Source: an uncultured Flavobacteriaceae bacterium (lineage in GTDB: Bacteria; Bacteroidota; Bacteroidia; Flavobacteriales; Flavobacteriaceae). Taken from it: 64,000 nucleotides of DNA. Where the stretch lies: assembly GCA_947497145.1 (NCBI GenBank), contig CANMFQ010000005.1, forward strand, positions 1 through 64,000. Reading direction: 5' to 3'. The position numbers and the translations under genes were made by a program. Each line of letters begins with the position of its first letter. The stretch's first letter is position 1. This document shows positions 20,326 through 33,799 of this stretch, piece after piece. The notes under the pieces are model-generated. The model was not told where the DNA came from and ran no database searches. It saw only the letters and a list, made by a program, of their open reading frames with translations.

Positions 20326-21672
20326 ATGCTCAATCAAATAATTAAATATTGCAAACTGCATAAATTAGCCATCTTACTTTCCGTACTAAGTTTGGTTTTT
20401 TATTACGTGTTTGCTTACCAATTAGAGCGAACAGAATTTATAAAACTACTCACTCTTTTTGCGGCGTTATTTTTCTTGTGCTATAAATTAATTCAGTTTG
20501 AAAAATGGAATTTCAAGTTCTTACTTGTTGTTGGTATTTTATGTAGAGCCGTTTTTCTTTTTATTGAACCCAACTTATCACAAGATTTTTATCGCTTTAT
20601 ATGGGATGGCGAGCTAGTGAGTCATTTTATGAACCCTTATTTAAACGTTCCAAACACTTTAATAAAACAACCAGACTTGGTTATTGCCAATGCTCAAGAA
20701 TTGTATGACGGCATGGGCAGCCTCAGCGCCAGACATTATAGCAACTACCCGCCTTTAAATCAGTTGCTTTTTGCTTTGGCAGCATTGCTAGGCGGAAAAA
20801 GTATTGTAGGCACTACCATTGCTATTCGGTTATTTGCCATTGGTGCCGATATCGGTATTTTCTATTTCGGACGAAAACTGCTACGCAACATCAACAAATC
20901 GGCATACCTTATATTTTGGTACTTTTTAAACCCCTTGGTTATTATTGAATTAACAGGCAACCTCCACTTTGAAGGCGTAATGCTTTTCTTTTTTGTATGG
21001 GCATTATACCTGCTTTCTGTACATCGAGTAAAATGGGCAGGAGTCATCTATGCCTGCGCTATCTCTATAAAATTGGTACCCCTATTATTTTTACCCTTAT
21101 TTTTAAAATATTTCAACCTAAAAAAAAGCAGCCTCTTTTACCTCATTGTTGGGGCTACTTCGTTGTTATTATTTGCTCCTTTTTACTCGCCTGATTTTAT
21201 TGCCAACTATTCAAAAACCATTGGACTGTGGTTTTCTAATTTCGAATTCAATGCGGGACTTTACAATGGTATTAAACAAATTGGAATACAGTTTTTTGAT
21301 GCAAAACCTTGGGAACTTATAAAAACCTATGGCAAAATCACACCCATCATTACCATCATCGCCGTTTTGCTTTTCACCTTTTTAAGAAAAAACCAAAAGC
21401 TATCAGTTCTCATCAGCTCAATGCTTTGGGTATTAACTTTATACTATTTAATGTCGGCAACGGTACACCCTTGGTACGTAATTTTTCTCGTGGTATTGAG
21501 TATTTTTACTGAATATCGTTTCGCCATAGCCTGGTCAGCAGTAATCATTTTAAGTTATTTTGCCTACTCGCTCAGTGATTTTAAAGAAAACCTCTGGTTA
21601 CTTGCTATTGAATATATCGCAGTTTATACCTTCTTGATTTATGAAATTATAGCTCATCGTAACAAAACATGA
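20326..21672 (+). CDS. GT-C-fold membrane glycosyltransferase (mannosyltransferase-like)
   Basis: A 448-residue integral membrane protein with about 10-12 hydrophobic helices spread over its whole length. The early loop LSQDFYRFIWDGELVSHFMNPY carries the acidic residues typical of polyprenyl-phosphate-sugar-dependent GT-C enzymes (GT87 / PIG-M-like). A further motif, SNYPPLNQLLFALAALL, matches the family's YPPL segment. It is predicted to transfer a sugar from a lipid-phosphate donor at the membrane to a lipid or glycan acceptor. Upstream and downstream genes are unrelated, so the acceptor is unknown. The arginine leader begins 64 bp after its stop. Confidence 0.8.
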   Translation: MLNQIIKYCKLHKLAILLSVLSLVFYYVFAYQLERTEFIKLLTLFAALFFLCYKLIQFEKWNFKFLLVVGILCRAVFLFIEPNLSQDFYRFIWDGELVSHFMNPYLNVPNTLIKQPDLVIANAQELYDGMGSLSARHYSNYPPLNQLLFALAALLGGKSIVGTTIAIRLFAIGADIGIFYFGRKLLRNINKSAYLIFWYFLNPLVIIELTGNLHFEGVMLFFFVWALYLLSVHRVKWAGVIYACAISIKLVPLLFLPLFLKYFNLKKSSLFYLIVGATSLLLFAPFYSPDFIANYSKTIGLWFSNFEFNAGLYNGIKQIGIQFFDAKPWELIKTYGKITPIITIIAVLLFTFLRKNQKLSVLISSMLWVLTLYYLMSATVHPWYVIFLVVLSIFTEYRFAIAWSAVIILSYFAYSLSDFKENLWLLAIEYIAVYTFLIYEIIAHRNKT

Positions 21673-21721
21673 AATTTTTGTAAAAAAAACCTCCTTCTGT
21701 AGGTTAATTCAAGATAATTTG

Positions 21722-21729
21722 TACATTTG
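21722..21729 (+). promoter_or_regulatory. Candidate -7 promoter box of the arginine operon
   Basis: TACATTTG fits the Bacteroidota TAnnTTTG consensus and lies 7 bp before the leader-peptide start. Transcription would then begin almost at the leader ATG, giving a very short 5' end. No clear -33 box is visible. Confidence 0.5.
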
Positions 21730-21736
21730 AAAGGTA

Positions 21737-21820
21737 ATGAAAGGACAAAACTACATAACGACTACAATAAGCACTACTGCTCAGGTACGTCCATTCTCTC
21801 CACGCCGTCGCCGCCCGTAA
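21737..21820 (+). CDS. Arginine-operon leader peptide (attenuation)
   Basis: A 27-codon ORF with ATG at 21737 and TAA ending at 21820. The product begins MKGQNYITTTISTTA and ends VRPFSPRRRRP: four consecutive Arg codons (CGC CGT CGC CGC) plus one earlier, immediately before the stop. It sits 88 bp upstream of the first gene of an operon that makes arginine. Short, near the promoter, with clustered codons for the operon's end product: these are the defining features of a ribosome-mediated attenuator. When charged Arg-tRNA is scarce, the ribosome should stall at the Arg run and change folding of the downstream RNA. It also has a Thr/Ile-rich stretch of unknown meaning. Confidence 0.78.
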   Translation: MKGQNYITTTISTTAQVRPFSPRRRRP

Positions 21821-21859
21821 GGGTGTATATAAATTATGGAAATAGGTGAGTCCATTTCC
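21812..21859 (+). promoter_or_regulatory. Candidate attenuator RNA structures of the arginine operon
   Basis: Two hairpins follow the Arg codon run. CGCCC-GTAA-GGGTG (21812-21825) includes the last Arg and Pro codons and puts the leader stop in its loop, so a stalled ribosome would prevent it. GGAAAT (21838-21843) pairs with ATTTCC (21854-21859), with inner GG/CC pairs. An alternative pairing of TCCAT near 21789 with ATGGA at 21836-21840 is possible. No clear T run follows the second hairpin, so the terminator form is not settled. Confidence 0.45.
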
Positions 21860-21908
21860 GCAAAACGACAATCACATTTTATTTACTTTCTAAATCTCTT
21901 TTGTAGCA

Positions 21909-22523
21909 ATGAAAATAGTTATTGCTAATGCATCACATTTTAAGTACGCACAAACCATTTGTGACACCATTGCCGATTCGGCACAGGTACGTGGAACGGG
22001 TATTGCTAAGCGTACTCCAGAGTACATTAAGAAAAAACTCGAAAACGGCAATGCCGTCATTGCTTTAGAAGGCGATACTTTTGCTGGTTTCTGTTATATT
22101 GAAGTTTGGGGACATGAAAAATTTGTTGCCAATTCAGGACTTATTGTACATCCTGATTTTAGAAATCAAGGATTAGCAAAAAAAATAAAAAAGGCCATTT
22201 TTGAGCTTTCCATTACCAAATTTCCCAATGCCAAAATATTTGGCATCACTACGGGTCTTGCGGTAATGAAAATAAATTATGACCTAGGATACAAACCCGT
22301 TACATTCTCAGAATTAACAGATGACCCCGATTTTTGGAAAGGATGTCAAACCTGCAAAAATTTTGATGTGCTAACCCGTACAGACCAAAAAATGTGCCTG
22401 TGTACTGGCATGCTCTATGACCCTGAATCGGCAACGAAAAAAGATAAAATAGTGAATGGAAAAGCTTTTAAAAGACTAAAAAGCATTAAGGAAAGCTTGT
22501 TTTTAAAAAAGAAAAGTAAATAA
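21909..22523 (+). CDS. GNAT N-acyltransferase, probable N-acylglutamate synthase
   Basis: A 204-residue GNAT-fold protein and the first gene after the arginine leader. The acyl-CoA-binding segment is LIVHPDFRNQGLAKKIKKAI (about 78-97). The C-terminal third has a Cys-rich stretch, CQTCKNFDVLTRTDQKMCLC, that could bind zinc and is not typical of GNAT enzymes. The window contains every other arginine step but no classical ArgA or ArgJ, so this enzyme most plausibly acylates glutamate, using acetyl- or succinyl-CoA. That role is inferred from position and from the same arrangement in related genomes as I know them. Confidence 0.7.
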   Translation: MKIVIANASHFKYAQTICDTIADSAQVRGTGIAKRTPEYIKKKLENGNAVIALEGDTFAGFCYIEVWGHEKFVANSGLIVHPDFRNQGLAKKIKKAIFELSITKFPNAKIFGITTGLAVMKINYDLGYKPVTFSELTDDPDFWKGCQTCKNFDVLTRTDQKMCLCTGMLYDPESATKKDKIVNGKAFKRLKSIKESLFLKKKSK

Positions 22524-22640: not shown

Positions 22641-23825
22641 ATGAAATTAGTTTTAGCATACAGTGGCGGATTAGACACTTCTTACTGCGCCAAATATTTA
22701 AGTAAAGAAAAAGGATATGAAGTACATGCGGTAAGTGTAAACACCGGAGGGTTTTCTGCTGAAGAAATAGCAACTATCAAAGAAAAAGCACTACAATTGG
22801 GGGCTACTTCTTACACTTCTATAGATGCTATAAAAACCTTTTATGACAAAGTGGTTAAGTATCTTATTTTTGGCAACGTTTTAAAAAATAACACCTACCC
22901 ATTATCGGTGAGTGCTGAACGTATTGTACAAGCCATTGAAATTGTAAATCACGCAAAAAAAATAGGTGCTAAATATATTGCACATGGCAGTACTGGAGCA
23001 GGTAACGACCAAGTACGATTTGATATGATTTTTCAAATTATCGCTCCTGAGATAGAAATTATCACGCCTATTAGAGACCATCAATTATCACGAGAAACCG
23101 AAATTGAGTACCTCAAAGAAAATGGTGTAAATTACTCATGGGAAAAGGCAAAATACTCTATTAACAAAGGGCTATGGGGCACCTCTGTTGGTGGCGAAGA
23201 AACCTTAACTTCTGAGAAGCCTCTGCCCGATAGCGCCTACCCTAGCCAATTACAAGAAAAGAACCCAGCCGAAGTAAAACTTACTTTTGAAAAAGGAGAA
23301 TTAGTTGCTATTGATGGAGTTACTGATAGTCCCGTTGCTAATATTGAAAAGCTCGATGCCATGGCGTCAAAATATGCAATCGGCCGAGACATTCATGTAG
23401 GCGATACCATTATTGGTATTAAAGGGCGTGTTGGTTTTGAAGCTCCAGCCTCTTTGATTATTATAAAGGCGCATCACCTTTTAGAAAAACACACGCTGAC
23501 CAAATGGCAACAGTATCAAAAAGAACAGCAAGGAAATTTCTACGGAATGCTCTTGCATGAGGGTAATTACCTCGATGCCGTTATGAGAAATATTGAAGCC
23601 TTTTTAACCGACACACAAAAAACCGTTTCGGGTGATGTATTTGTAGGCTTATACCCCTTTCAATTTCGATTAAATGGTATTGCATCGAAACATGATTTAA
23701 TGAATGCCTCTTTTGGAAGCTATGGTGAAATGAATAAGGCTTGGTCTGCCGATGATGCCAAAGGTTTTATCAAAATTTTATCGAATTCAGGAAAAATTTA
23801 CAATCACGTAAACAAAGAAATCTAA
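22641..23825 (+). CDS. argG: Argininosuccinate synthase
   Basis: A 394-residue enzyme condensing citrulline and aspartate, with ATP, to argininosuccinate. The N-terminal PP-loop is LVLAYSGGLDTSYCAKYL, and HGSTGAGNDQVRFD carries the aspartate/citrulline-binding residues. Length matches the family. It is the second gene of the operon, 117 bp after the GNAT gene; that gap includes a small hairpin (CTGC...GCAG, near 22602) but no clear terminator. Cytoplasmic. Confidence 0.96.
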   Translation: MKLVLAYSGGLDTSYCAKYLSKEKGYEVHAVSVNTGGFSAEEIATIKEKALQLGATSYTSIDAIKTFYDKVVKYLIFGNVLKNNTYPLSVSAERIVQAIEIVNHAKKIGAKYIAHGSTGAGNDQVRFDMIFQIIAPEIEIITPIRDHQLSRETEIEYLKENGVNYSWEKAKYSINKGLWGTSVGGEETLTSEKPLPDSAYPSQLQEKNPAEVKLTFEKGELVAIDGVTDSPVANIEKLDAMASKYAIGRDIHVGDTIIGIKGRVGFEAPASLIIIKAHHLLEKHTLTKWQQYQKEQQGNFYGMLLHEGNYLDAVMRNIEAFLTDTQKTVSGDVFVGLYPFQFRLNGIASKHDLMNASFGSYGEMNKAWSADDAKGFIKILSNSGKIYNHVNKEI

Positions 23826-23857
23826 TCGGTTTAGGTATTAAGAAATAAAACTAGGAT

Positions 23858-24832
23858 ATGATTAAAGCAGGTATTATAGGTGGTTCAGGATATACTGGAG
23901 GAGAATTGATTCGAATTCTATTAAACCACGCACAAGTTGAAATTGATTTTGTGTATAGCACCACTAGAGCTGGCAAAGAAATTTCAACTGCACATCCCGA
24001 TGTTTTGGGCACCACCGATTTAGTTTTCACAGGCGCGGTAAACCCTACGGTAGATGTTGTTTTTCTATGTTTAGGACACGGTAATTCTACTAAATTTTTA
24101 AATGAAAACGCTTTTTCTAAAAACACAAAAATTATTGATTTAAGTAATGATTTTCGGTTACAGGAAGCGGCTAATTTCAATGAAAAATCATTCGTTTACG
24201 GCTTGCCAGAACTTAACAAAGCTAGCATACAAAACGCTAATTACATTGCCAATCCGGGCTGCTTTGCTACCGCCATTCAATTGGGCTTATTACCCCTTGC
24301 AAAGGCTAAAAAACTACAACATACCATTCATGTTAATGCCGTCACAGGAAGTACAGGCGCTGGTGTTAGTCCATCAGCCACAACCCATTTTAGCTGGCGA
24401 AATAGCAATGTGAGCTGGTACAAGCCTTTTACGCATCAACATTTGGGAGAAATAAACGAAAGCCTACAATCATTACAGCAAAATACGGGCGAGCTTATTT
24501 TTCTACCCAATAGAGGTAATTTTACTCGGGGTATTTTCGCCACTGCCTACACGCATTTTGAAGGTTCTGAAGACGAAGCAATAGCCTTGTACAAAGGTTT
24601 TTATGAAACGGCGGCTTTTACCCAAGTTACGGCAGCCCCCATACAACTAAAACAGGTGGTAAATACCAATCAATGTCACATTCATATACACAAACATAAA
24701 CATACGCTGCTTATCACCTCTGCTATTGACAACTTGCTAAAAGGGGCTTCAGGGCAGGCAGTTCAAAATATGAACCTAATGTTTGGGTTTCCTGAAAACG
24801 AAGGCTTGCAATTAAAAGCTAGTGTTTTTTAG
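23858..24832 (+). CDS. argC: N-acyl-gamma-glutamyl-phosphate reductase
   Basis: A 324-residue NADPH-dependent reductase making the N-acylglutamate semialdehyde. It has a Rossmann motif at the start (IIGGSGYTGGELIRILL) and the catalytic Cys in NPGCFATAIQLGLLPL. It acts after ArgB and before ArgD, and lies 32 bp after argG. Whether its substrate is acetylated or succinylated follows from the ArgF' question. Confidence 0.95.
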   Translation: MIKAGIIGGSGYTGGELIRILLNHAQVEIDFVYSTTRAGKEISTAHPDVLGTTDLVFTGAVNPTVDVVFLCLGHGNSTKFLNENAFSKNTKIIDLSNDFRLQEAANFNEKSFVYGLPELNKASIQNANYIANPGCFATAIQLGLLPLAKAKKLQHTIHVNAVTGSTGAGVSPSATTHFSWRNSNVSWYKPFTHQHLGEINESLQSLQQNTGELIFLPNRGNFTRGIFATAYTHFEGSEDEAIALYKGFYETAAFTQVTAAPIQLKQVVNTNQCHIHIHKHKHTLLITSAIDNLLKGASGQAVQNMNLMFGFPENEGLQLKASVF

Positions 24833-24908
24833 CGGATACCAGTAATACATAAACCCAATAACAAACGAATAAAAACCAAAAAATCCCCTAAGTATAAAAT
24901 ATCAAATC

Positions 24909-25709
24909 ATGAAAATAGCCATCATAGGAGCAGGAAATTTAGGATTATCAATTGCAAAAGGCATATTGAATAACAAGGGGCGTAATCAATTGTACTTAAC
25001 CAAACGAAACCCTACCGAGCTTTACAGTTTTGAAAAGTACGGTAATGTCATCATCACTTCCGATAATAGAGAAGCGGTAAAAAAATCGGATATATTAATT
25101 TTTGCGGTGCAACCTAGTCAACTAGAAACCATTTTAGAAAATATCAAAGACCTATTGACCGCAAAACATGTAATCATATCAACGATTACGGGTTTTAGTA
25201 TTGCTAGAATAGAAGCTATAGTTGGCGCTAAACACAATATTATACGAAGTATGCCCAATACGGCTATTTCGGTAGGCAAATCTATGACCTGCATTTGTGC
25301 CAATGAAAAAGGAAAAAAACGTATCGATTTAGCCAAATCTATATTTAATCGCATGGGGCATTCTTTAGAAATACCAGAAGAGCAAATGCAAGCGGCTACC
25401 GTTATTTGTGCCAGTGGTATTGCTTTTTGGATGCGTTTAATTCGCGCAACCACACAGGGTGCAATTCAATTGGGTTTTGATGCCCAAGAAGCCCAAGAAT
25501 TAGCGATGAACACCTGTAATGGAGCAGCTGAGTTACTTATACAATCTGAAAGTCATCCGGAAGCAGAAATTGATAAGGTAACCACCCCAAAAGGATGCAC
25601 CATCCAAGGCTTGAATGAAATGGAGCACCAAGGTTTAAGCTCGTCCCTCATTCAAGGTATTGTAGCATCGTTTGAAAAAATTAGCGCCATAAAAGAACAA
25701 CAACTTTAG
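24909..25709 (+). CDS. proC: Pyrroline-5-carboxylate reductase
   Basis: A 266-residue enzyme catalysing the last step of proline synthesis. It has an N-terminal dinucleotide-binding motif (IAIIGAGNLGLSIAKGIL), the conserved SMPNTAISVGKS segment and the C-terminal family block TTPKGCTIQGLNEME. It is embedded in the arginine operon 76 bp after argC. Proline and arginine both start from glutamate semialdehyde-type intermediates, so coexpression makes sense but implies proline synthesis is tied to arginine control. Confidence 0.94.
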   Translation: MKIAIIGAGNLGLSIAKGILNNKGRNQLYLTKRNPTELYSFEKYGNVIITSDNREAVKKSDILIFAVQPSQLETILENIKDLLTAKHVIISTITGFSIARIEAIVGAKHNIIRSMPNTAISVGKSMTCICANEKGKKRIDLAKSIFNRMGHSLEIPEEQMQAATVICASGIAFWMRLIRATTQGAIQLGFDAQEAQELAMNTCNGAAELLIQSESHPEAEIDKVTTPKGCTIQGLNEMEHQGLSSSLIQGIVASFEKISAIKEQQL

Positions 25710-25806
25710 TATACGTAACTGCTAAATTTTATTTTTCGGCGCATAAAAATCGTTAAACCAACTATACTAACACCGTGCTAGTAAAACGCACAAAGCATAT
25801 ACAACT

Positions 25807-26934
25807 ATGAATCTATTTGATGTTTATCCATTATATGATGTAACACCTGTTTCGGCCAAAGGCAATGTAGTAATTGACGATAAAGGTGAGGAGTATTTAG
25901 ATTATTATGGCGGTCATGCTGTAATTTCTATTGGTCATTCACACCCCCATTATGTACAACGCTTAAAAGGGCAATTAGATAAAATTGGGTTTTATAGCAA
26001 TGCTGTTCAAAATCCGTTACAACAAGAATTGGCTAGTAAATTGGGGCAACTTTCTGGTTGTGATGATTACAGTCTGTTTCTCTGTAATTCTGGAGCTGAG
26101 GCGAATGAAAACGCCTTAAAACTAGCATCATTTCACACAGGAAAAAATAGGGTTATCGCCTTTAAAAATGGGTTTCATGGACGTACCTCTGCGGCAGTTG
26201 CTGCCAGCGATAACGAAAAAATAAATGCGCCCTTAAACAAGCAACAAAAGGTAAGTATTTTACCCCTTAATGATATTGGTAGCTTTACTACTGAAATAAC
26301 CAAAGGAGATGTGTGTGCTGTGATTATTGAAGCTATTCAAGGTGTTGGTGGGCTTGACGAACCTACGACGCAATTCTACCAAGAAATAGCACGCTTATGT
26401 AAAGAAAATAATGTAGTACTTATCGCTGATGAGGTACAATCAGGCTTTGGCAGAAGTGGTTTGTTTTTTGGTTTTCAGCACCATAATATTCAACCTGATA
26501 TTATTAGTATTGCCAAGGGAATGGGAAATGGTTTCCCTGTGGGAGGCGTATTAATTCACGAGCACATTAAAGCTTCCTATGGTTTGCTTGGCACTACCTT
26601 TGGTGGTAATCATCTTGCTTGTACGGCAACACTAGCCGTCTTGGAGGTATTAGCAGAAGAAAAACTTATTGAAAACGCTGCCCAATTAGGCGAATATTTT
26701 AATAAAAAAGCAGCCGAAATTCCGCAAGTAAAACAAACCAAAGGTAGAGGCTTAATGCTAGGCTTGGAGTTTGATTTTGAAGTAGCCGAACTAAGAAAAA
26801 AATTAATTTACAACCAGCACTTATTTACGGGCGGAGCAAAAGACAAGCATGTGCTTCGTATTTTACCTGCTCTAAATATTACCAAAAAAGATATCGATAT
26901 CTTCTTTAACGCTCTTAAAGCTGAACTAAATTGA
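25807..26934 (+). CDS. argD: N-acylornithine aminotransferase
   Basis: A 375-residue class III PLP aminotransferase converting the N-acylglutamate semialdehyde to N-acylornithine. Visible motifs are CNSGAEANENALKLA (cofactor phosphate binding), ADEVQSGFGRSG and the PLP lysine in IAKGMGNGFPVGG. Its TGA overlaps the TTG start of proA by 4 bp (TTGA), so the two are probably translationally coupled. A 97-bp gap precedes it. Confidence 0.93.
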   Translation: MNLFDVYPLYDVTPVSAKGNVVIDDKGEEYLDYYGGHAVISIGHSHPHYVQRLKGQLDKIGFYSNAVQNPLQQELASKLGQLSGCDDYSLFLCNSGAEANENALKLASFHTGKNRVIAFKNGFHGRTSAAVAASDNEKINAPLNKQQKVSILPLNDIGSFTTEITKGDVCAVIIEAIQGVGGLDEPTTQFYQEIARLCKENNVVLIADEVQSGFGRSGLFFGFQHHNIQPDIISIAKGMGNGFPVGGVLIHEHIKASYGLLGTTFGGNHLACTATLAVLEVLAEEKLIENAAQLGEYFNKKAAEIPQVKQTKGRGLMLGLEFDFEVAELRKKLIYNQHLFTGGAKDKHVLRILPALNITKKDIDIFFNALKAELN

Positions 26935-28130
26935 AAAAACAACTCAATATTACCCAACGCAATGCGGTATTAACTTCAATGGCGCAGCTCATTAAAGCCA
27001 ATGAAACTAGTATTCTTGAAGCTAACAAAAAGGATTTAAAAAAATACGATGGTAGTGATATTGCCATGCGTGACCGCCTAAAAGTAGATAACAGCAAAAT
27101 TAAGGGGATGATTTTATCCTTAGAACAGCTGGCCAATGCGACAGACCCATTAGGTGTAGAACGCTATGCATTCACTCACGAAAACGGCATGCAAATATCT
27201 AATAAAACGGCACCTTTTGGTACACTTTTAATTATTTATGAATCGCGCCCTGACGTTACTATTGAAGCAGCAGGAATTGCTTTTAAATCTGGAAATAAAA
27301 TTCTTTTAAAAGGCGGTAAAGAATCCCTTAAAAGTAATTTAATTTTAGTTTCTCTATGGCACAAAGCATTAGAAAAAAATAATTGCAGTACTGATTGGGT
27401 AACCTATTTAGAATTTGACAGAATACAAACACAGGCCTTCTTAGAAAATCCAACACAAAAATTAGATTTAATAGTACCAAGAGGGGGCGAAAAACTTATT
27501 GCCTTTGTAAAACAACATGCCTGTTGCCCTGTAATTGTTAGCGGTAGAGGAAATAATTTTCTCTATGTAGATACCGAGGCAGATTTGCAGATGGCTTTTG
27601 ATATTATCACAAATGCAAAAACAACAAAAATATCGGCCTGCAATGCGCTTGACAAGGTGCTTATAGCATCTGATATGCCTAGAAAACATGAGTTTTTACA
27701 AGGACTAATACAAGAATTACAAAAACATAAGGTCACCATTTTAACAGATGAAAAGCTGGCAAATATTGATGGCACATCACCCATTGAAAATGAGGCAATT
27801 TGGTATGAAGAATTTCTAGATTATAAAATTGCCATCGGTCAAGTTGCAAATTTAGATGAGGCTATTGACAAAATAAACACCTATGGCGGTGGGCATTCGG
27901 CAGCAATAATCACCGCCAATACTGAAAAAGCCAATACCTTTATGAACACTGTAGATACTGCAGCGGCATATCACAATGCCTCTACGCGATTTACAGATGG
28001 CGGGCAATTTGGCCTTGGTGGCGAACTTGCAATAAGCACCGACAAATTACATCAGCGAGGTCCTATTGGCTTACAGCATCTGGTAACCAATAAATGGTAT
28101 ATCATAGGAAATGGGCAGGTGAGAAATTAA
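26931..28130 (+). CDS. proA: Gamma-glutamyl-phosphate reductase
   Basis: A 399-residue enzyme reducing gamma-glutamyl phosphate to glutamate semialdehyde for proline. It has YESRPDVTIEAAGIAFKSGN, KGGKES and the catalytic Cys in TKISACNALDKVL, with GGHSAAIIT near the end. The start is TTG at 26931, overlapping the argD stop. No in-frame ATG gives a complete N-terminus (MKKQLNITQRNAVL is expected of the family), so TTG is the best choice. Confidence 0.94.
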   Translation: MKKQLNITQRNAVLTSMAQLIKANETSILEANKKDLKKYDGSDIAMRDRLKVDNSKIKGMILSLEQLANATDPLGVERYAFTHENGMQISNKTAPFGTLLIIYESRPDVTIEAAGIAFKSGNKILLKGGKESLKSNLILVSLWHKALEKNNCSTDWVTYLEFDRIQTQAFLENPTQKLDLIVPRGGEKLIAFVKQHACCPVIVSGRGNNFLYVDTEADLQMAFDIITNAKTTKISACNALDKVLIASDMPRKHEFLQGLIQELQKHKVTILTDEKLANIDGTSPIENEAIWYEEFLDYKIAIGQVANLDEAIDKINTYGGGHSAAIITANTEKANTFMNTVDTAAAYHNASTRFTDGGQFGLGGELAISTDKLHQRGPIGLQHLVTNKWYIIGNGQVRN

Positions 28131-28231
28131 GCATTTTTATTGCTTAAAAGTTACAACATTTGGGAGATAACCCCTTAACTATAAGTATTTCGAAGTTCAC
28201 TTCGAGCGAATATAGCACTAGTAGGCAAGTT

Positions 28232-28996
28232 ATGAATAAAAAAAGAATCTTACTTAAAATTGGCTCCAATACGCTAACCAAAGAAACCAATCAGATTTCT
28301 AGGGGCAAAATTGAAGACATCGGCAGGCAAATAGCCAAGCTAAATAGCCATTATGAGTTCATTATTGTGAGTTCTGGAGCAATTGCTGCCGCCAAGCAAT
28401 TTGTTAAACTAGAACATAATGGTGAAGAAATCAATGTAAAACAAGCACTAGCAGCTATCGGCCAACCCCATTTAATGCGCATTTTTCAAGAGAATTTTAG
28501 AGAGCTAGGCTTATTCACTTCACAGTGTTTATTGTCGTATGCTGATTTTGAAAAACCCGAATCACAAGAAAACATTAAGAATACTATTAATGTTTTGGTG
28601 GCTAATAATTTCATCCCCATTATCAATGAAAATGACACAGTGTCTACTGATGAAATACAATTTGGAGACAATGACAAGTTAGCTGCTTTAACAGCTGCCC
28701 TATTAAAAGCCGATTTACTGGTAATTGCAACCAATACAGATGGCATTTATACCAAGGCCTCAATAAAAGATGATGCGCCAATTACCATTGCTTCTGTCTC
28801 TGATATTAGTGTATTGGAAAAAGAAATTAGTTTAGAAAAATCTTCTCATGGTACAGGGGGAATGCAATCAAAAATAGAAGCAGCAACCATAGCACAAAAA
28901 GCAGCAATCGAAACACGTATTGTAAACGGCTTAAAAGACAATTTTATAATTGATGCCCTAAGCGGCATTTTAGAACACACCAAAATAACAGTATGA
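28232..28996 (+). CDS. proB: Glutamate 5-kinase
   Basis: A 254-residue amino-acid kinase phosphorylating glutamate for proline synthesis. Family blocks are ILLKIGSNTLT, IVSSGAIAAAKQ, INENDTVSTDEIQFGDND and GTGGMQSKIEAA. A longer frame from 28160 exists, but its first 24 residues do not resemble the family, so the ATG at 28232 is chosen. It lacks the C-terminal PUA domain of the longer enzymes, placing it in the short class. Its stop overlaps the argF' start by 4 bp (ATGA). Confidence 0.94.
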   Translation: MNKKRILLKIGSNTLTKETNQISRGKIEDIGRQIAKLNSHYEFIIVSSGAIAAAKQFVKLEHNGEEINVKQALAAIGQPHLMRIFQENFRELGLFTSQCLLSYADFEKPESQENIKNTINVLVANNFIPIINENDTVSTDEIQFGDNDKLAALTAALLKADLLVIATNTDGIYTKASIKDDAPITIASVSDISVLEKEISLEKSSHGTGGMQSKIEAATIAQKAAIETRIVNGLKDNFIIDALSGILEHTKITV

Positions 28997-29931
28997 AGCA
29001 CTATTTATCTATAAACGATATAGACACCCTTAGCGATTGGGTATCAGCAGCCAGAAAGCTAAAAGAAAATCCAAAAAAATTTAAAACATTAGGGCAAGAC
29101 AAAACAATTTGCCTCTTGTTTTTTAACAATAGCCTTCGCACCCGCTTAAGCACACAAAAAGCAGCTATGAATCTTGGCATGGAAGTCATGGTTATGAACT
29201 TCGGCAGTGAGGGCTGGGCGCTTGAATATGGAGATGGCACCCTTATGAATAAAGGTACCTCTGAGCATATTAAAGAAGCGGCGATGGTGGTTTCACAGTT
29301 CTGTGACATTGTTGCTATTAGGGCTTTTGCTTCTTTAACCGATAAAGAAAAAGACGAAGCTGAAGTTGTGCTCAACGGATTTAAAAAATACGCTTCAGTA
29401 CCGGTAGTGAATATGGAAAGCTCCGTGGGTCATCCATTACAAGCCCTTGCTGACGCCATTACTTTGAATGAGCAAAACGCCAAAAAACGACCTAAAGTAG
29501 TACTTTCATGGGCGCCACACCCAAAAGCATTACCCCATGCAGTAGCCAACTCCTTTGTGCAGATGATGAAATTGCAAGATGCTGATTTTGTTATAACACA
29601 TCCCGAAGGATATGAGCTAAACACCCAAATCACAGCAGGTGTAACAATTGAACATGACCAAAAAAAAGCCTGTGAGCATGCCGATTTTATTTACGTTAAA
29701 AACTGGAGCAGCTATACCGATTACGGCCAAATAAAAAATGAGGATGCTAACTGGATGATGACCAAAGAAAAATTAGGCAAGGCGAAATTTATGCATTGTT
29801 TGCCCGTTCGTAGAAATGTAGTGGTTGAAGATGCTGTATTAGACAGTAAGCAATCGCTCGTTATTGAGCAGGCTAATAATAGAACCTATGCAGCCCAAAT
29901 TGTATTAAAAAAAATAGTAGAAGCCCTTTAA
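28993..29931 (+). CDS. argF': N-succinylornithine/N-acetylornithine carbamoyltransferase (ArgF')
   Basis: A 312-residue transcarbamylase of the branch that uses N-acylated ornithine. The carbamoyl-phosphate site is FNNSLRTRLSTQKAAMN in place of the usual STRT, with HCLPVRR near the end. The specificity residue at position 90 is Ser (NKGTSEHIKEA). The Bacteroides fragilis succinyl enzyme has Pro90, and the Xanthomonas acetyl enzyme has Glu92 at the same place; published mutants of that Glu to Ser, Pro, Ala or Val switch to succinylornithine. Ser90 therefore favours N-succinylornithine. It overlaps proB by 4 bp. No plain ornithine transcarbamylase is present. Confidence 0.93.
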   Translation: MKHYLSINDIDTLSDWVSAARKLKENPKKFKTLGQDKTICLLFFNNSLRTRLSTQKAAMNLGMEVMVMNFGSEGWALEYGDGTLMNKGTSEHIKEAAMVVSQFCDIVAIRAFASLTDKEKDEAEVVLNGFKKYASVPVVNMESSVGHPLQALADAITLNEQNAKKRPKVVLSWAPHPKALPHAVANSFVQMMKLQDADFVITHPEGYELNTQITAGVTIEHDQKKACEHADFIYVKNWSSYTDYGQIKNEDANWMMTKEKLGKAKFMHCLPVRRNVVVEDAVLDSKQSLVIEQANNRTYAAQIVLKKIVEAL

Positions 29932-29984
29932 CCCCTTTTTCTAGTTCGTAGTTTAGACGAAGGTTTAATTTAAAATGTATACGT

Positions 29985-30758
29985 GTGCAATTATCAATTA
30001 TAAAAATAGGCGGAAATGTTATTGAAAATAAGACAGAACTCGCTAAGTTTCTCAACTTATTTTCTAAGATAAAAGGAGCTAAAATTTTAGTTCACGGAGG
30101 TGGTAAATTAGCAACGCAACTCGCCACAAAAATGGGCATGGAATCGAAAATGGTTGGAGGTCGAAGAATTACTGATACTGACACCCTTGAAATCATCACC
30201 ATGGTTTACGCTGGGCTAACCAACAAAAATATTGTTGCGCAACTACAGGCAAAACAATGTAATGCCATTGGCCTCAGTGGTACTGATGGCGATGCTATTC
30301 AGGCACATAAACGCCCCGTAAAAGATATTGACTATGGCTTTGTAGGTGATGTTGATGGTGTTAACAACGATTTACTTTCAACATTATTAGAAGCAGGCTT
30401 AACACCTGTTTTTTGTGCCATGACCCATGATGGCAAAGGACAATTATTAAATACCAATGCAGATACCATTGCGTCTGAATTGGCTATTGCCATGAGCAAA
30501 AACTATGACACTACGCTCTACTACTGTTTTGAAAAAAAGGGCGTATTATTAGACATTAATGACGAAACATCGGTAGTGCAGCAAATAGACACTAAAAAAT
30601 ATGCCCAATTATTAAACGATGGTGTTATCGCAGATGGTATGCTTCCTAAACTAGAAAATTGCTTTCATGCTCTTCAAAACAAGGTAACCAAAGTGTGCCT
30701 AGGAGATATGGAAATGCTCGCACCAACTACTAAATTATTTACAACCCTAAGCTTGTAA
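29985..30758 (+). CDS. argB: N-acylglutamate kinase
   Basis: A 257-residue amino-acid kinase phosphorylating N-acylglutamate. It has IIKIGGNVIENK at the start, VHGGGKLATQLATKMG, GLSGTDGDAI and INNDGxxx-type NTNADTIASELA. The start is GTG at 29985; the nearby ATG at 29975 is out of frame. Its C-terminus ends LFTTLSL, and argE begins 2 bp after its stop. Arginine feedback inhibition needs an N-terminal helix in long ArgB enzymes, which this protein lacks, so control may rest on the leader peptide. Confidence 0.93.
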   Translation: MQLSIIKIGGNVIENKTELAKFLNLFSKIKGAKILVHGGGKLATQLATKMGMESKMVGGRRITDTDTLEIITMVYAGLTNKNIVAQLQAKQCNAIGLSGTDGDAIQAHKRPVKDIDYGFVGDVDGVNNDLLSTLLEAGLTPVFCAMTHDGKGQLLNTNADTIASELAIAMSKNYDTTLYYCFEKKGVLLDINDETSVVQQIDTKKYAQLLNDGVIADGMLPKLENCFHALQNKVTKVCLGDMEMLAPTTKLFTTLSL

Positions 30759-30760
30759 CC

Positions 30761-31825
30761 ATGCAACAACAAGAACTCACAGCAAAAGCAATTGATTTAT
30801 TACAGCAATTGATTCAAATTCCATCTTTTTCAAAAGAAGAAGATAAAACAGCCGATGCCATAGAAGATTGGTTTAGGTTTTTCAACATCCCTTTTACTCG
30901 AACAAATAATAATGTTTATGCTAAAAACAAATTTTGGGATGACACCAAACCTACCCTCCTATTAAACTCACATCATGATACTGTAAAGCCAAATAAAGCG
31001 TATACCAAAGACCCATTTAATGCACATATTGAAGATGGTAAATTGTACGGTTTAGGCAGTAATGATGCTGGCGGCTGTTTAGTTTCTCTTTTAGCTACTT
31101 TCACACACTTTTATGCGCTTGAAAATAGTAGTCACAACATACTCATGGTAGCTTCAGCTGAAGAAGAAAATGCTGGTGAAAATAGCTTGCGCGGCTTGCT
31201 TCCTAGTTTACCAAAAATTGATGTCGCAATTGTAGGAGAACCCACACTAATGCAGCTTGCCATTGCCGAAAAAGGCCTAGTGGTCTTTGATGCAGTCGTA
31301 AAAGGCACACCTTCTCATGCTGCGCATCCTAACGATAATAACGCCATTTACAATACCATTGCAGTTTTAGAATGGTTTAAAAATTACACCTTTAAAAAAA
31401 CATCCGAAGCACTTGGTGATGTTAAAATGACGGTTACCCAAATTAATGCTGGCACACAGCATAATGTTGTACCATCACAAGTAGATTTGGTCATTGATGT
31501 TCGTGTAAACGACGCTTATACGAATAAAGAAATTGCAACACTATTAAAAGCAGAAGCGCCTTGCGAAATACAAGAAAGAGGTCTCAAACTCAACTCATCA
31601 AAGATTGACAAAAATCACGCCTTAGTGCAGGCAGGTATTGCATTAGGACGAGAAACCTACGGCTCACCAACACTATCAGACCAGGCTGCGCTAAGCTGCC
31701 AGTCGTTAAAATTAGGCCCAGGAGACAGTACCCGCTCTCACTCGGCAAATGAGTACATTTACGTTCACGAAATTGAAGAAGGAATAGATTTATACATCAA
31801 AATTCTATCTGGTTTTTTACTATAA
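30761..31825 (+). CDS. argE: N-acyl-ornithine/citrulline deacylase, M20 family
   Basis: A 354-residue M20-family metallohydrolase. Metal-binding motifs are LLNSHHDTVKP (His, Asp), GSNDAGGC (Asp), ASAEEENAGE (Glu-Glu) and VGEPT. In the ArgF' pathway it removes the acyl group from N-acylcitrulline to give citrulline for ArgG, rather than acting on ornithine. It starts 2 bp after argB, so it is tightly coupled. A short gap with a weak hairpin (CAGCA...TGCTG, near 31840-31872) separates it from argH. Confidence 0.92.
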   Translation: MQQQELTAKAIDLLQQLIQIPSFSKEEDKTADAIEDWFRFFNIPFTRTNNNVYAKNKFWDDTKPTLLLNSHHDTVKPNKAYTKDPFNAHIEDGKLYGLGSNDAGGCLVSLLATFTHFYALENSSHNILMVASAEEENAGENSLRGLLPSLPKIDVAIVGEPTLMQLAIAEKGLVVFDAVVKGTPSHAAHPNDNNAIYNTIAVLEWFKNYTFKKTSEALGDVKMTVTQINAGTQHNVVPSQVDLVIDVRVNDAYTNKEIATLLKAEAPCEIQERGLKLNSSKIDKNHALVQAGIALGRETYGSPTLSDQAALSCQSLKLGPGDSTRSHSANEYIYVHEIEEGIDLYIKILSGFLL

Positions 31826-31889
31826 CACAAACATATCACCAGCATACTATAATATAAATAGTCTGCTGTTAATCACTAATAGAACACAT

Positions 31890-33170
31890 ATGAAACTCTG
31901 GGATAAAGGTTTTAGTACCGATAAAAAAATAGACATTTTCACGGTTGGCAACGATAGAGCGTTAGACCTTCACCTTGCTAAATATGATGTAATTGCCTCT
32001 AAAGCACACGCCAAAATGCTAGGCGAAATCAACCTCCTAACAGCAGCAGAAACAGATGCGCTAATACGTGAACTAAATGCCATTGGAGAAAGCATTGAAA
32101 ACAATACGTTTACCATTGAAGATTCATTTGAAGATATGCATTCTAAAATTGAGTATCTACTTATTGAAAAATTAGGTGATACGGGCAAAAAAATACATAC
32201 AGCGCGGTCAAGAAACGACCAAGTTTTAGTAGCAATGCACTTATATCTTAAAGATGAATTAAACCAAATAAAAGCACAAACCACAGAACTCTTCAATTTA
32301 CTCATTGATTTAGCCGAAAAGCACAAGGCCGTTTTACTACCCGGTTATACGCACTTACAAATTGCTATGCCCTCTTCTTTTGGCTTATGGTTTTCTGCCT
32401 ATGCAGAGAGTTTAATTGACGATTTATATTTTATTGAAGCAGCCTATAAAGTAGCTGACCAAAACCCCTTAGGCAGTGCTGCTGGTTATGGCAGTTCATT
32501 TCCTATAAACCGAACCTATACTACTGAAGAAATGAACTTTGCCTCAATGAAATATAATGTTGTAGCCGCCCAAATGGGAAGAGGAAAGGTAGAAAAAGCT
32601 ACGGCTTTTGGTATGGCAAATATAGCCGCAACCCTATCAAAAATGGCTATGGATATCTGTTTGTACATGAGCCAGAACTTTAATTTTGTATCGTTTCCTG
32701 ATGCCTTAACTACGGGTAGTAGTATTATGCCGCACAAAAAGAATCCTGATGTTTTTGAATTGGTACGGGGTAAATGCAATAATCTACAGGCCATACCTAA
32801 TCAATTAACTATGGTCATTAACAATTTACCAAGTGGGTATCATCGTGATTTGCAATTGGTAAAAGAAATTATTGTACCCGCTATTCAAGATATGAAAGCG
32901 TGCTTGGAAATTCTCACCTTTAGTTTAAAAGAAATTCGCATTAATGAAAGTATCTTAGAAGACCCAAAATATGATTATCTGTTTAGCGTAGATACCTTGA
33001 ATGAATTGGTTTTATCGGGTATACCATTTAGAGATGCGTACAAAAAAATGGGGCAAGAAATTCAGGAAGGTACTTTTAGTCCCAAACGCGATATTAAACA
33101 TACCCACGAAGGAAGCTTAGGCAACCTTTGCTTAGACCAAATTAAAGCAAAAATGGATACCATACGGTAA
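31890..33170 (+). CDS. argH: Argininosuccinate lyase
   Basis: A 426-residue fumarase-superfamily enzyme releasing arginine and fumarate, the last pathway step. The signature loop is TTGSSIMPHKKNPDVFELVRG, with upstream blocks EDMHSKIE, HTARSRNDQV and LPGYTHLQIAMPSSFG. It is slightly shorter than the roughly 460-residue family norm, trimmed at the C-terminus. It is the last gene of the operon. Confidence 0.95.
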   Translation: MKLWDKGFSTDKKIDIFTVGNDRALDLHLAKYDVIASKAHAKMLGEINLLTAAETDALIRELNAIGESIENNTFTIEDSFEDMHSKIEYLLIEKLGDTGKKIHTARSRNDQVLVAMHLYLKDELNQIKAQTTELFNLLIDLAEKHKAVLLPGYTHLQIAMPSSFGLWFSAYAESLIDDLYFIEAAYKVADQNPLGSAAGYGSSFPINRTYTTEEMNFASMKYNVVAAQMGRGKVEKATAFGMANIAATLSKMAMDICLYMSQNFNFVSFPDALTTGSSIMPHKKNPDVFELVRGKCNNLQAIPNQLTMVINNLPSGYHRDLQLVKEIIVPAIQDMKACLEILTFSLKEIRINESILEDPKYDYLFSVDTLNELVLSGIPFRDAYKKMGQEIQEGTFSPKRDIKHTHEGSLGNLCLDQIKAKMDTIR

Positions 33171-33307
33171 GTATCAAAGATGAATCTAAGCGCTTGCTAA
33201 AACTTTGAATACGTTTGATAATATTGGGCTTTGTATCAACTAGTGTAAACTTACATTCTTTTGATATTCAAAACATGTTGTATATTGTTGGTACAAAACC
33301 CATTAAA

Positions 33308-33799
33308 ATGAATAAAACAGTACTTATTTTGTGTTTTTTAGCCCTAGGTATTTCATGCAAAGCGCAAAATACATTATCAATTTCTGAAGGTCATGTCTCA
33401 CCCAAAGCAAACCTATCTCAAATTGCTTGGATGGAAGGCCATTGGAAAGGTGAAGCCTTTGGAGGGATAACAGAAGAAATTTGGAGTCCCCCATTGGGAG
33501 AATCAATGCTATTTTCTTTTAAATTGGTTGTTGATAACAAGGTTAATTTCTATGAATTAGGGCATATTCGTAAAATTGGCGAAAGTTTAATTTTCGAGCT
33601 CAAACACTTTGGTCCAGATTTAAAAGGCTGGGAAGAAAAAGAAGAAGTACAGCAATTTAAATTTATTAAGGCTGAAAAAAATAGAATGTATTTTGATGGC
33701 TTTACTTTTGAAAAAGTCTCAGCAAATGAAATTAACATCTACGGCCTCATACATACTGGTGATAATGCTGAAGAGGTAAAATTTAATTACAAAAAATAG
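33308..33799 (+). CDS. Lipoprotein of the DUF6265 type
   Basis: About 163 residues from the ATG at 33308; a longer frame from 33215 adds an implausible N-terminus. The N-terminus is a lipoprotein signal (NKTVLILCFLALGISCK), predicted to be lipidated at the Cys in GISC. The mature part contains ISQIAW-like LSQIAWMEGHWKGEAFGG, EEIWSPPLGESML and a beta-barrel-like repeat pattern matching DUF6265 family proteins as I know them. Function unknown. It is followed by the zinc-ribbon gene 1 bp after its stop. Confidence 0.75.
   Translation: MNKTVLILCFLALGISCKAQNTLSISEGHVSPKANLSQIAWMEGHWKGEAFGGITEEIWSPPLGESMLFSFKLVVDNKVNFYELGHIRKIGESLIFELKHFGPDLKGWEEKEEVQQFKFIKAEKNRMYFDGFTFEKVSANEINIYGLIHTGDNAEEVKFNYKK

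Follow-up and report, generated by a model that had tools for sequence, protein, structure and literature searches.

An arginine leader peptide with a conserved hp1–hp2 RNA element upstream of the arginine operons of Flavobacteriaceae

Leader-peptide attenuation has been described for one member of the family Flavobacteriaceae, Flavobacterium psychrophilum, and what is added here is an arginine leader with an hp1–hp2 element. According to the accessible portion of a study on Flavobacterium psychrophilum (PMC9723704), which speaks of structured 5′ regions and leader-peptide attenuation in general terms, the -7 promoter box lies at -12 to -5 and leaderless mRNAs make up 5.5%, and the accessible text of PMC7366714 mentions sORFs of leader type in B. 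thetaiotaomicron. The literature covered, to which subscription papers and supplements largely do not belong and from which absence in print is not claimed, describes no arginine leader or hp1/hp2 element in Bacteroidota. It is likewise silent on the arginine control of the 149 family genomes analysed, none of which, the genome of the present locus among them, has a match to the ArgR C-domain (8 of 14 controls were positive, Bacteroides included), and the element described below is a specific candidate answer.

The window, i.e., the whole stretch of DNA that was analysed, comprises 64,000 nt of an uncultured member of the family, and the features of the locus are collected in Table 1. As the original prediction had it, a 27-codon ORF with an Arg run near its end and a box upstream is present in the sequence, hairpins (hp1 and hp2) overlap and follow the run, and the leader is succeeded by eleven genes with arginine enzymes among them. 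These arginine/proline genes all lie 3′ of the leader on the plus strand, the leader stop being separated from the ATG of the first gene by 88 nt. The genes argG, argC, proC, proA, proB and argB match NCBIfam models above the curated cut-offs, argD and the argF-type gene (an N-acylornithine-type carbamoyltransferase) stay below them, and the calls of the GNAT acetyltransferase, the M20 peptidase/deacylase and the lyase-1 gene (argH) are based on Pfam only. A DUF6265 gene (33290–33799) is located on the same strand 3′ of argH.

Table 1. Features of the arginine leader locus and its operon (positions in the window)
Feature	Position	Strand	Basis and remarks
-7 promoter box TACATTTG (TAnnTTTG)	21722–21729	+	Sequence; box-to-ATG spacing 7 nt
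Leader ORF MKGQNYITTTISTTAQVRPFSPRRRRP, then stop	21737–21820	+	27 codons; ATG 21737, TAA 21818–21820; sequence and conservation
hp0, AGCA-cuac-UGCU, within the leader ORF	21770–21781	+	4 bp; weak in the window, not better than shuffles; conserved in relatives
Arg codon run CGC CGT CGC CGC (R23–R26)	21803–21814	+	Sequence; followed by Pro CCG and TAA
hp1, CGCCC-GUAA-GGGUG, over the last Arg, Pro and stop codons	21812–21825	+	
hp1–hp2 linker	21826–21837	+	U-rich in relatives, less so in the window
hp2, GGAAAU-A-GG-UGAGU-CC-AUUUCC	21838–21859	+	Near-invariant apex
hp3, over the start codon of the first gene	21904–21927	+	Energy -8.4 kcal/mol; pronounced in close relatives, less so in ORF-A genomes
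First gene, GNAT acetyltransferase (putative N-acylglutamate synthase)	21909–22523	+	Pfam; putative function from position
argG, argC, proC, argD, proA, proB, argF-type, argB, M20 deacylase (argE-like), argH	22641–33170	+	

From the box placement in F. psychrophilum (PMC9723704) we infer a transcript start at about 21734 and a 5′ UTR of about 3 nt, and the leader mRNA is probably near-leaderless. The box by itself is weak evidence, as a TAnnTTTG box stands 5–9 nt ahead of an ATG at 15 places within the window. Among the 577 ATG ORFs of 15–60 codons that the window contains, both strands counted, two have four consecutive arginines, and the leader is the sole independent case, since the other ORF, MDSPISIIYIHPYGRRRRGENGRT (21781–21855, minus strand), is its antisense reading, which mirrors the GC-rich run of the leader and is taken as a by-product. 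The observation is taken as real because the leader is conserved in relatives.

Of the 149 family genomes, 98 contain a GNAT homologue, and the DNA upstream of these genes, together with the best 80 of at least 457 matches in a named collection, gave a set of 178 loci, in which the two parts share some species (e.g., L002 and L033). The element was located at 172 of these 178 loci. A lack of conservation of the ORF and its Arg codons among relatives, named beforehand as speaking against the leader, was not observed: when the frame with the most Arg in the last 14 codons was taken, a choice that favours Arg-rich ends and looks wrong at L071 and L139, 144 of the 172 leaders end in RRP-stop, 12 read through past RRP and 16 end otherwise, including nine with RP-stop. 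At 104 of the 178 loci, a loose box, TAnnTT(T/A)(G/A/C), has an ATG no more than 20 nt away; 93 of these 104 have a spacing of 7 or 8 nt, and 95 have a leader of 25–28 codons. When the last 14 codons are taken from each of 156 distinct leaders, 589 of their 620 Arg codons are of the CGU/CGC type, in comparison with 43 of 119 in 13 genes of the window. Overall, as judged from sequence comparison, this is a genuine arginine leader that is widespread in Flavobacteriaceae.

The distribution of the element was followed with a covariance model (R1) built on 73 dereplicated sequences, which has just four pairs, acts mainly as a sequence profile and gives rough E-values. In the genome of the window it finds one copy (E 6e-17, the next match being at 0.58), and among the 149 family genomes a single copy is present in each of 92 of the 102 with argG and in none of the 47 without it. 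Matches were obtained in 17 of 246 genomes drawn across the order (16 of them family members; for one genus of the family, g127, 19 genomes are listed without a match) and in 15 of 247 drawn across the phylum (13 within the family), and both draws make the element a trait of part of Flavobacteriaceae. Three weak matches outside the family (L199–L201, E 8e-4 to 0.01) were judged by eye to be due to chance, the roughly 280 nt around each being without a leader.

The ten argG-containing genomes without an R1 match (G017, G033, G051, G065, G069, G081, G110, G121, G127 and G140) count against the explanation preferred below. Divergent or degraded forms of the element are present in G033, G081 and G110, only the upstream leader ORF A (see below) in G140, at best a remnant in G065, and just an RRRRR frame roughly 440 nt upstream in G069. 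In both G017 and G051 the first gene is another one, preceded by a short Arg-rich ORF (RRRFR); in G121, also with another first gene, and in G127 the pattern search found no Arg-rich short ORF upstream. The other first gene before argG in G084, G017, G051 and G121 (L247–L250) is a frame of 194–221 aa, acetyltransferase-like by eye, and G084 retains the RNA element despite it.

The hairpins of the original prediction do exist, although the most conserved part of the locus had been missed, namely, the hp1–hp2 RNA element, for which Rfam offers no match. At gathering scores the window has no Rfam match at all (T-box, riboswitches, Flavo-1 and others covered), permissive scores gave just five minus-strand matches far below the cut-off in 21650–21950, and none of 14 loci had a match at E ≤ 1. 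The strict hp2 motif is absent at 19 of the 178 loci, 13 of which have a looser hp2 and six none (L127, L129, L172, L176, L177 and L178). At the other 159, the apex (consensus GG-UGNGU-CC) reads AGGUGAGUCC in 133, AGGUGUGUCC in 20, AGGUGCGUCC in four and otherwise in two, and at least five outer pairs can form in 157 when G-U pairs and bulges of 1–4 nt are allowed, with 53 distinct arm pairs. Two-sided changes in hp2 amount to 40 cells in the class with a one-nt bulge (49 windows) against a shuffle mean of 11.4 (maximum 18), and to 20 cells in the class with a two-nt bulge (30 windows) against 4.3 (maximum 10); nine of the 159 loci fall outside both classes.

In swap tests at 73 dereplicated loci, the same-species arms of hp2 pair better than arms swapped between species, none of 2000 permutations being as good, and the outcome for hp0 was the same (0/2000). 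Moreover, hp0 reached p 0.05 against shuffles in 23 of 72 regions, with 2/72 and 4/72 in control regions. All these tests ignore codon use, and relatedness affects the swaps: low values were also obtained with two of the three coding controls (0 and 12 of 2000), and one leader-to-downstream control gave 131/2000. The signals of hp2 and hp0 exceed all the swap-test controls, yet they are not proofs. For hp1, 370 of 2000 permutations were as good; as this hairpin is nearly invariant, the covariation test is without power, and pairings involving hp1 cannot be judged by it. Of the 12 leaders that read past RRP, in which the stop has moved, 11 still allow a stem of 4–7 bp at this place, and compensated hp1 stems occur in L019 (GCGCAC/GUGCGC) and L029 (CGCAC/GUGCG). 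The linker contains 58.8% U compared with 37.3% after hp2 (72 dereplicated loci), from windows that are slightly shifted, hp1 having been placed two nt late in this and the hp0-region analyses, the hp0 fold of the window and the leader masking.

Several other readings of the element were set aside. An invariant CGCC:GGUG complementarity (alignment A1) is not claimed, since RNAalifold gave it only because MAFFT had misaligned the hp2 arms, and predictions for 152 leaders taken singly give it a mean probability of 0.007. No covariation is visible between column 10 and the loop N of the apex, and an interpretation of hp2 as a CsrA-like, T-box-like or k-turn motif was not retained.

Part of the family has an additional short ORF (ORF A) close to a box, with an Arg-rich end and more than 150 nt before the gene, e.g., MKNLKNKIRCTVPGFPVRFRRRY followed by a stop. 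It passed the filter at 37 of the 98 whole-genome loci, a few of which are doubtful, and sits about 210–290 nt upstream of the first gene (L111–L147 and similar loci). At many of these loci, a U-rich tract immediately ahead of ORF B pairs with codons close to the start of ORF A, with 0/2000 swaps as good and energies of -10.9 (matched), -8.9 (swapped) and -6.4 (shuffled) kcal/mol. Such an upstream Arg leader would add a tandem sensor. Four degraded hp1/hp2 copies (L113, L118, L127 and L129) occur in ORF A genomes, as if the presence of ORF A relaxes the constraint on hp1/hp2.

The leader peptide very probably senses the arginine supply. In the mechanism that we prefer, a scarcity of charged tRNA-Arg would make the ribosome stall in the CGU/CGC run, and, the 5′ arm of hp1 being made of the last Arg and the Pro codons, the stalled ribosome would cover this arm and hp1 would stay open; with such direct masking, a separate antiterminator would not be needed. 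When arginine is ample, the ribosome would finish and depart, hp1 would close, and closed hp1 together with the U-rich linker and hp2 would lower expression of the operon. We give this full chain of stalling, masking and lowered expression an even chance. Its output would most likely be an early loss of transcription in the leader, weakly hp1-dependent or Rho-assisted, which is preferred because the whole operon would then be controlled. The 40 nt before the GNAT gene contain 6% G (159 loci) in comparison with 12% before 13 other genes of the window, 17% for his and 13% for ilv, and such a G-poor stretch would suit Rho action but does not count as evidence for it.

In favor of this mechanism are the conserved leader, box and Arg run, the CGY bias, the link to argG, the lack of ArgR, the persistence of hp1, the U-rich linker and the lack of covariation in the alternative pairings tested. 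Apart from the ten genomes without a match, it is weakened by the short hp1 (5 bp) and the U-poor linker of the window, by the -2.2 kcal/mol that the window reaches in the terminator scan and by the fold of the window's leader, no more stable than shuffles (z -0.35 and -0.41). Moreover, the proposed switch is situated 5′ of hp2 and does not explain the invariant apex of that hairpin.

The alternative that survives best, although we consider it rather unlikely, is translational control, whereby hp3, which covers the GNAT start codon, would open or stay closed according to the state of the leader. The GNAT enzyme would be the committed step, so that its control alone could set the flux, the window is without a terminator, and start-region structure tunes initiation in F. 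johnsoniae, as stated in the accessible part of PMC6847099. The GNAT start window folds more stably than that of argG at all 71 named loci with both starts, from the best 80 of at least 457 matches (mean -6.75 versus -2.04 kcal/mol, P(AUG paired) 0.75 versus 0.41, GC 0.32 versus 0.28), but these loci are the closest relatives of the window, and at 34 ORF-A loci the GNAT start window has -4.0 kcal/mol compared with -6.9 at 102 box-proximal loci. The link to the leader also appears faint: blocking of the Arg run/hp1 or of the stop region in silico hardly changes the accessibility of the start in 152 leaders (0.448, 0.438 and 0.456), and window pairs between the leader and the downstream start reach just z of about -3 to -3.7 at low energies. 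The hp3 swap test (0/2000) was discounted and left unused, one of the three coding controls having given the same value.

Of the attenuator envisaged in the original prediction, the conserved arginine leader peptide is supported, and the textbook terminator/antiterminator form is not. If it were classical, hp1 or hp2 would be the intrinsic terminator and an alternative pairing the antiterminator, which is improbable. The scan between the leader and the first gene of the window (L001) found no canonical intrinsic terminator, the best hairpin reaching -2.2 kcal/mol; the prediction had allowed for terminator details unlike the enteric ones, but the window has none, whereas his and ilv leaders mostly have one. 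A hairpin of -8 kcal/mol or below with a U-tract within 100 nt is present at 14 of the 178 arg loci (the best 80 of at least 457 matches included), in 12 of them as hp1 plus linker, and in a few cases (L097 and L155) a U run stands 3′ of hp2, but 164 loci, the window included, do not reach this stability; in comparison, the same scan in the same genus/family detected a strong intrinsic terminator in most leader regions of his (12 of 13) and ilv (8 of 13), over scan lengths of 115 nt (his), 330 nt (ilv) and 100 nt (arg), with hp2 at or beyond the edge of the scanned stretch at five of the 178 loci. The his set came from 20 matches listed, 17 of which were used for leaders and 13 for the scan (out-of-family loci and fragments dropped), and the ilvD set from 26 listed, with 15 and 13, respectively. 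None of the alternative pairings tested covaries, either in the swap tests (73 dereplicated loci) or in two unbiased window-pair maps: 892/2000 permutations matched or beat the linker with the hp2 5′ arm, and 1872/2000 the hp1 3′ arm with the hp2 5′ arm, although for pairings with the nearly invariant hp1 such a comparison has no power. In both maps (628 window pairs from 44 loci and 1178 from 37 of 97 loci) hp2 and hp0 came out on top, joined by the start-codon hairpin in the first, and 17 and 13 pairs, the hp0, hp2 and start-codon windows included, went beyond z -3, with three and four, respectively, of opposite sign.

Even less probable, in our estimate, is that hp2 (with hp1) serves as the binding site of a putative trans factor (a protein, RNA polymerase or the ribosomal anti-SD), with the leader gating access. 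Its apex is near-invariant (133, 20, 4 and 2 of 159), whereas the stems vary, and the AGGUGA within the apex (21844–21849) is complementary to UCACCU, which we take to be the 16S anti-SD core. Shine-Dalgarno pairing is not used in this phylum, so this match is odd. The change of GG:CC to GA:UC in L030 fits pairing within the molecule but not with 16S, and the second hairpin in G033 has another loop. Least of all do we expect a nascent-chain arrest peptide that senses free arginine at Pro-stop, as TnaC does with tryptophan: the RRP-stop (144/172) and nine further RP-stop ends would fit, and TnaC and SpeFL, the latter reportedly also a leader peptide in control of an operon, presumably have an Arg/Pro-rich end at the stop, but the stop shifts in 12 of the 172 leaders, the upstream residues vary widely, hp1 alone could account for the conserved Pro and stop codons, and conserved residues with a fixed site at the stop were not found among the 172 leaders.

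Beyond the preferred masking mechanism, we tentatively suggest, as a possibility that we would not rate highly, that hp1–linker–hp2 may represent a cis-regulatory RNA of a new class, to date encountered only before the arginine operons of Flavobacteriaceae. In it, a stalled ribosome would mask the hairpin formed by the Arg and stop codons of its own leader, the GG-UGNGU-CC apex would recruit a putative partner (RNA polymerase, Rho, a protein or the ribosome), and attenuation would be terminator-free. The conserved hp2 apex offers a concrete handle on such a possible new partner. The arg leader would also show how a leader peptide exerts control in bacteria whose translation starts without Shine-Dalgarno pairing; its ORF is probably near-leaderless and a standard terminator is lacking, in contrast to the his and ilv leaders with terminators in the same lineage. 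In the genome of the window, a his leader (MRNQNTHHH...) before hisG (L211) and an ilv-type leader before ilvD (L233) each have a strong intrinsic terminator.

Among the systems described, TnaC (accessible part of PMC8429421) resembles the arg leader in that a leader peptide controls an operon, but it senses a free metabolite by nascent-chain arrest, and the residues upstream of the run are unconserved in the arg leader. Closer in what is sensed is RbfL of S. aureus (PMC13009471, as far as accessible), where Arg codons of a leader ORF respond to arginine supply; RbfL, however, overlaps the rbf SD, represses on stalling and uses AGA/AGG, whereas the arg leader uses CGY and is 88 nt away from the gene. 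The F. psychrophilum work (PMC9723704) concerns the same family and leader peptides upstream of amino-acid operons, although its accessible text, supplements aside, does not name an arginine leader or the hp1/hp2 element. With the HisL/TrpL/IlvL-type attenuators, the arg leader shares a short ORF of cognate codons just after the promoter and ahead of the operon, and the his leader of the window's genome likewise starts, by eye, 7 nt after its box, TACATTTA. It differs from them in that no strong intrinsic terminator or covarying antiterminator was found for it, and what marks it instead is an hp2 apex that hardly varies and, among close relatives, a hairpin covering the start of the first gene.
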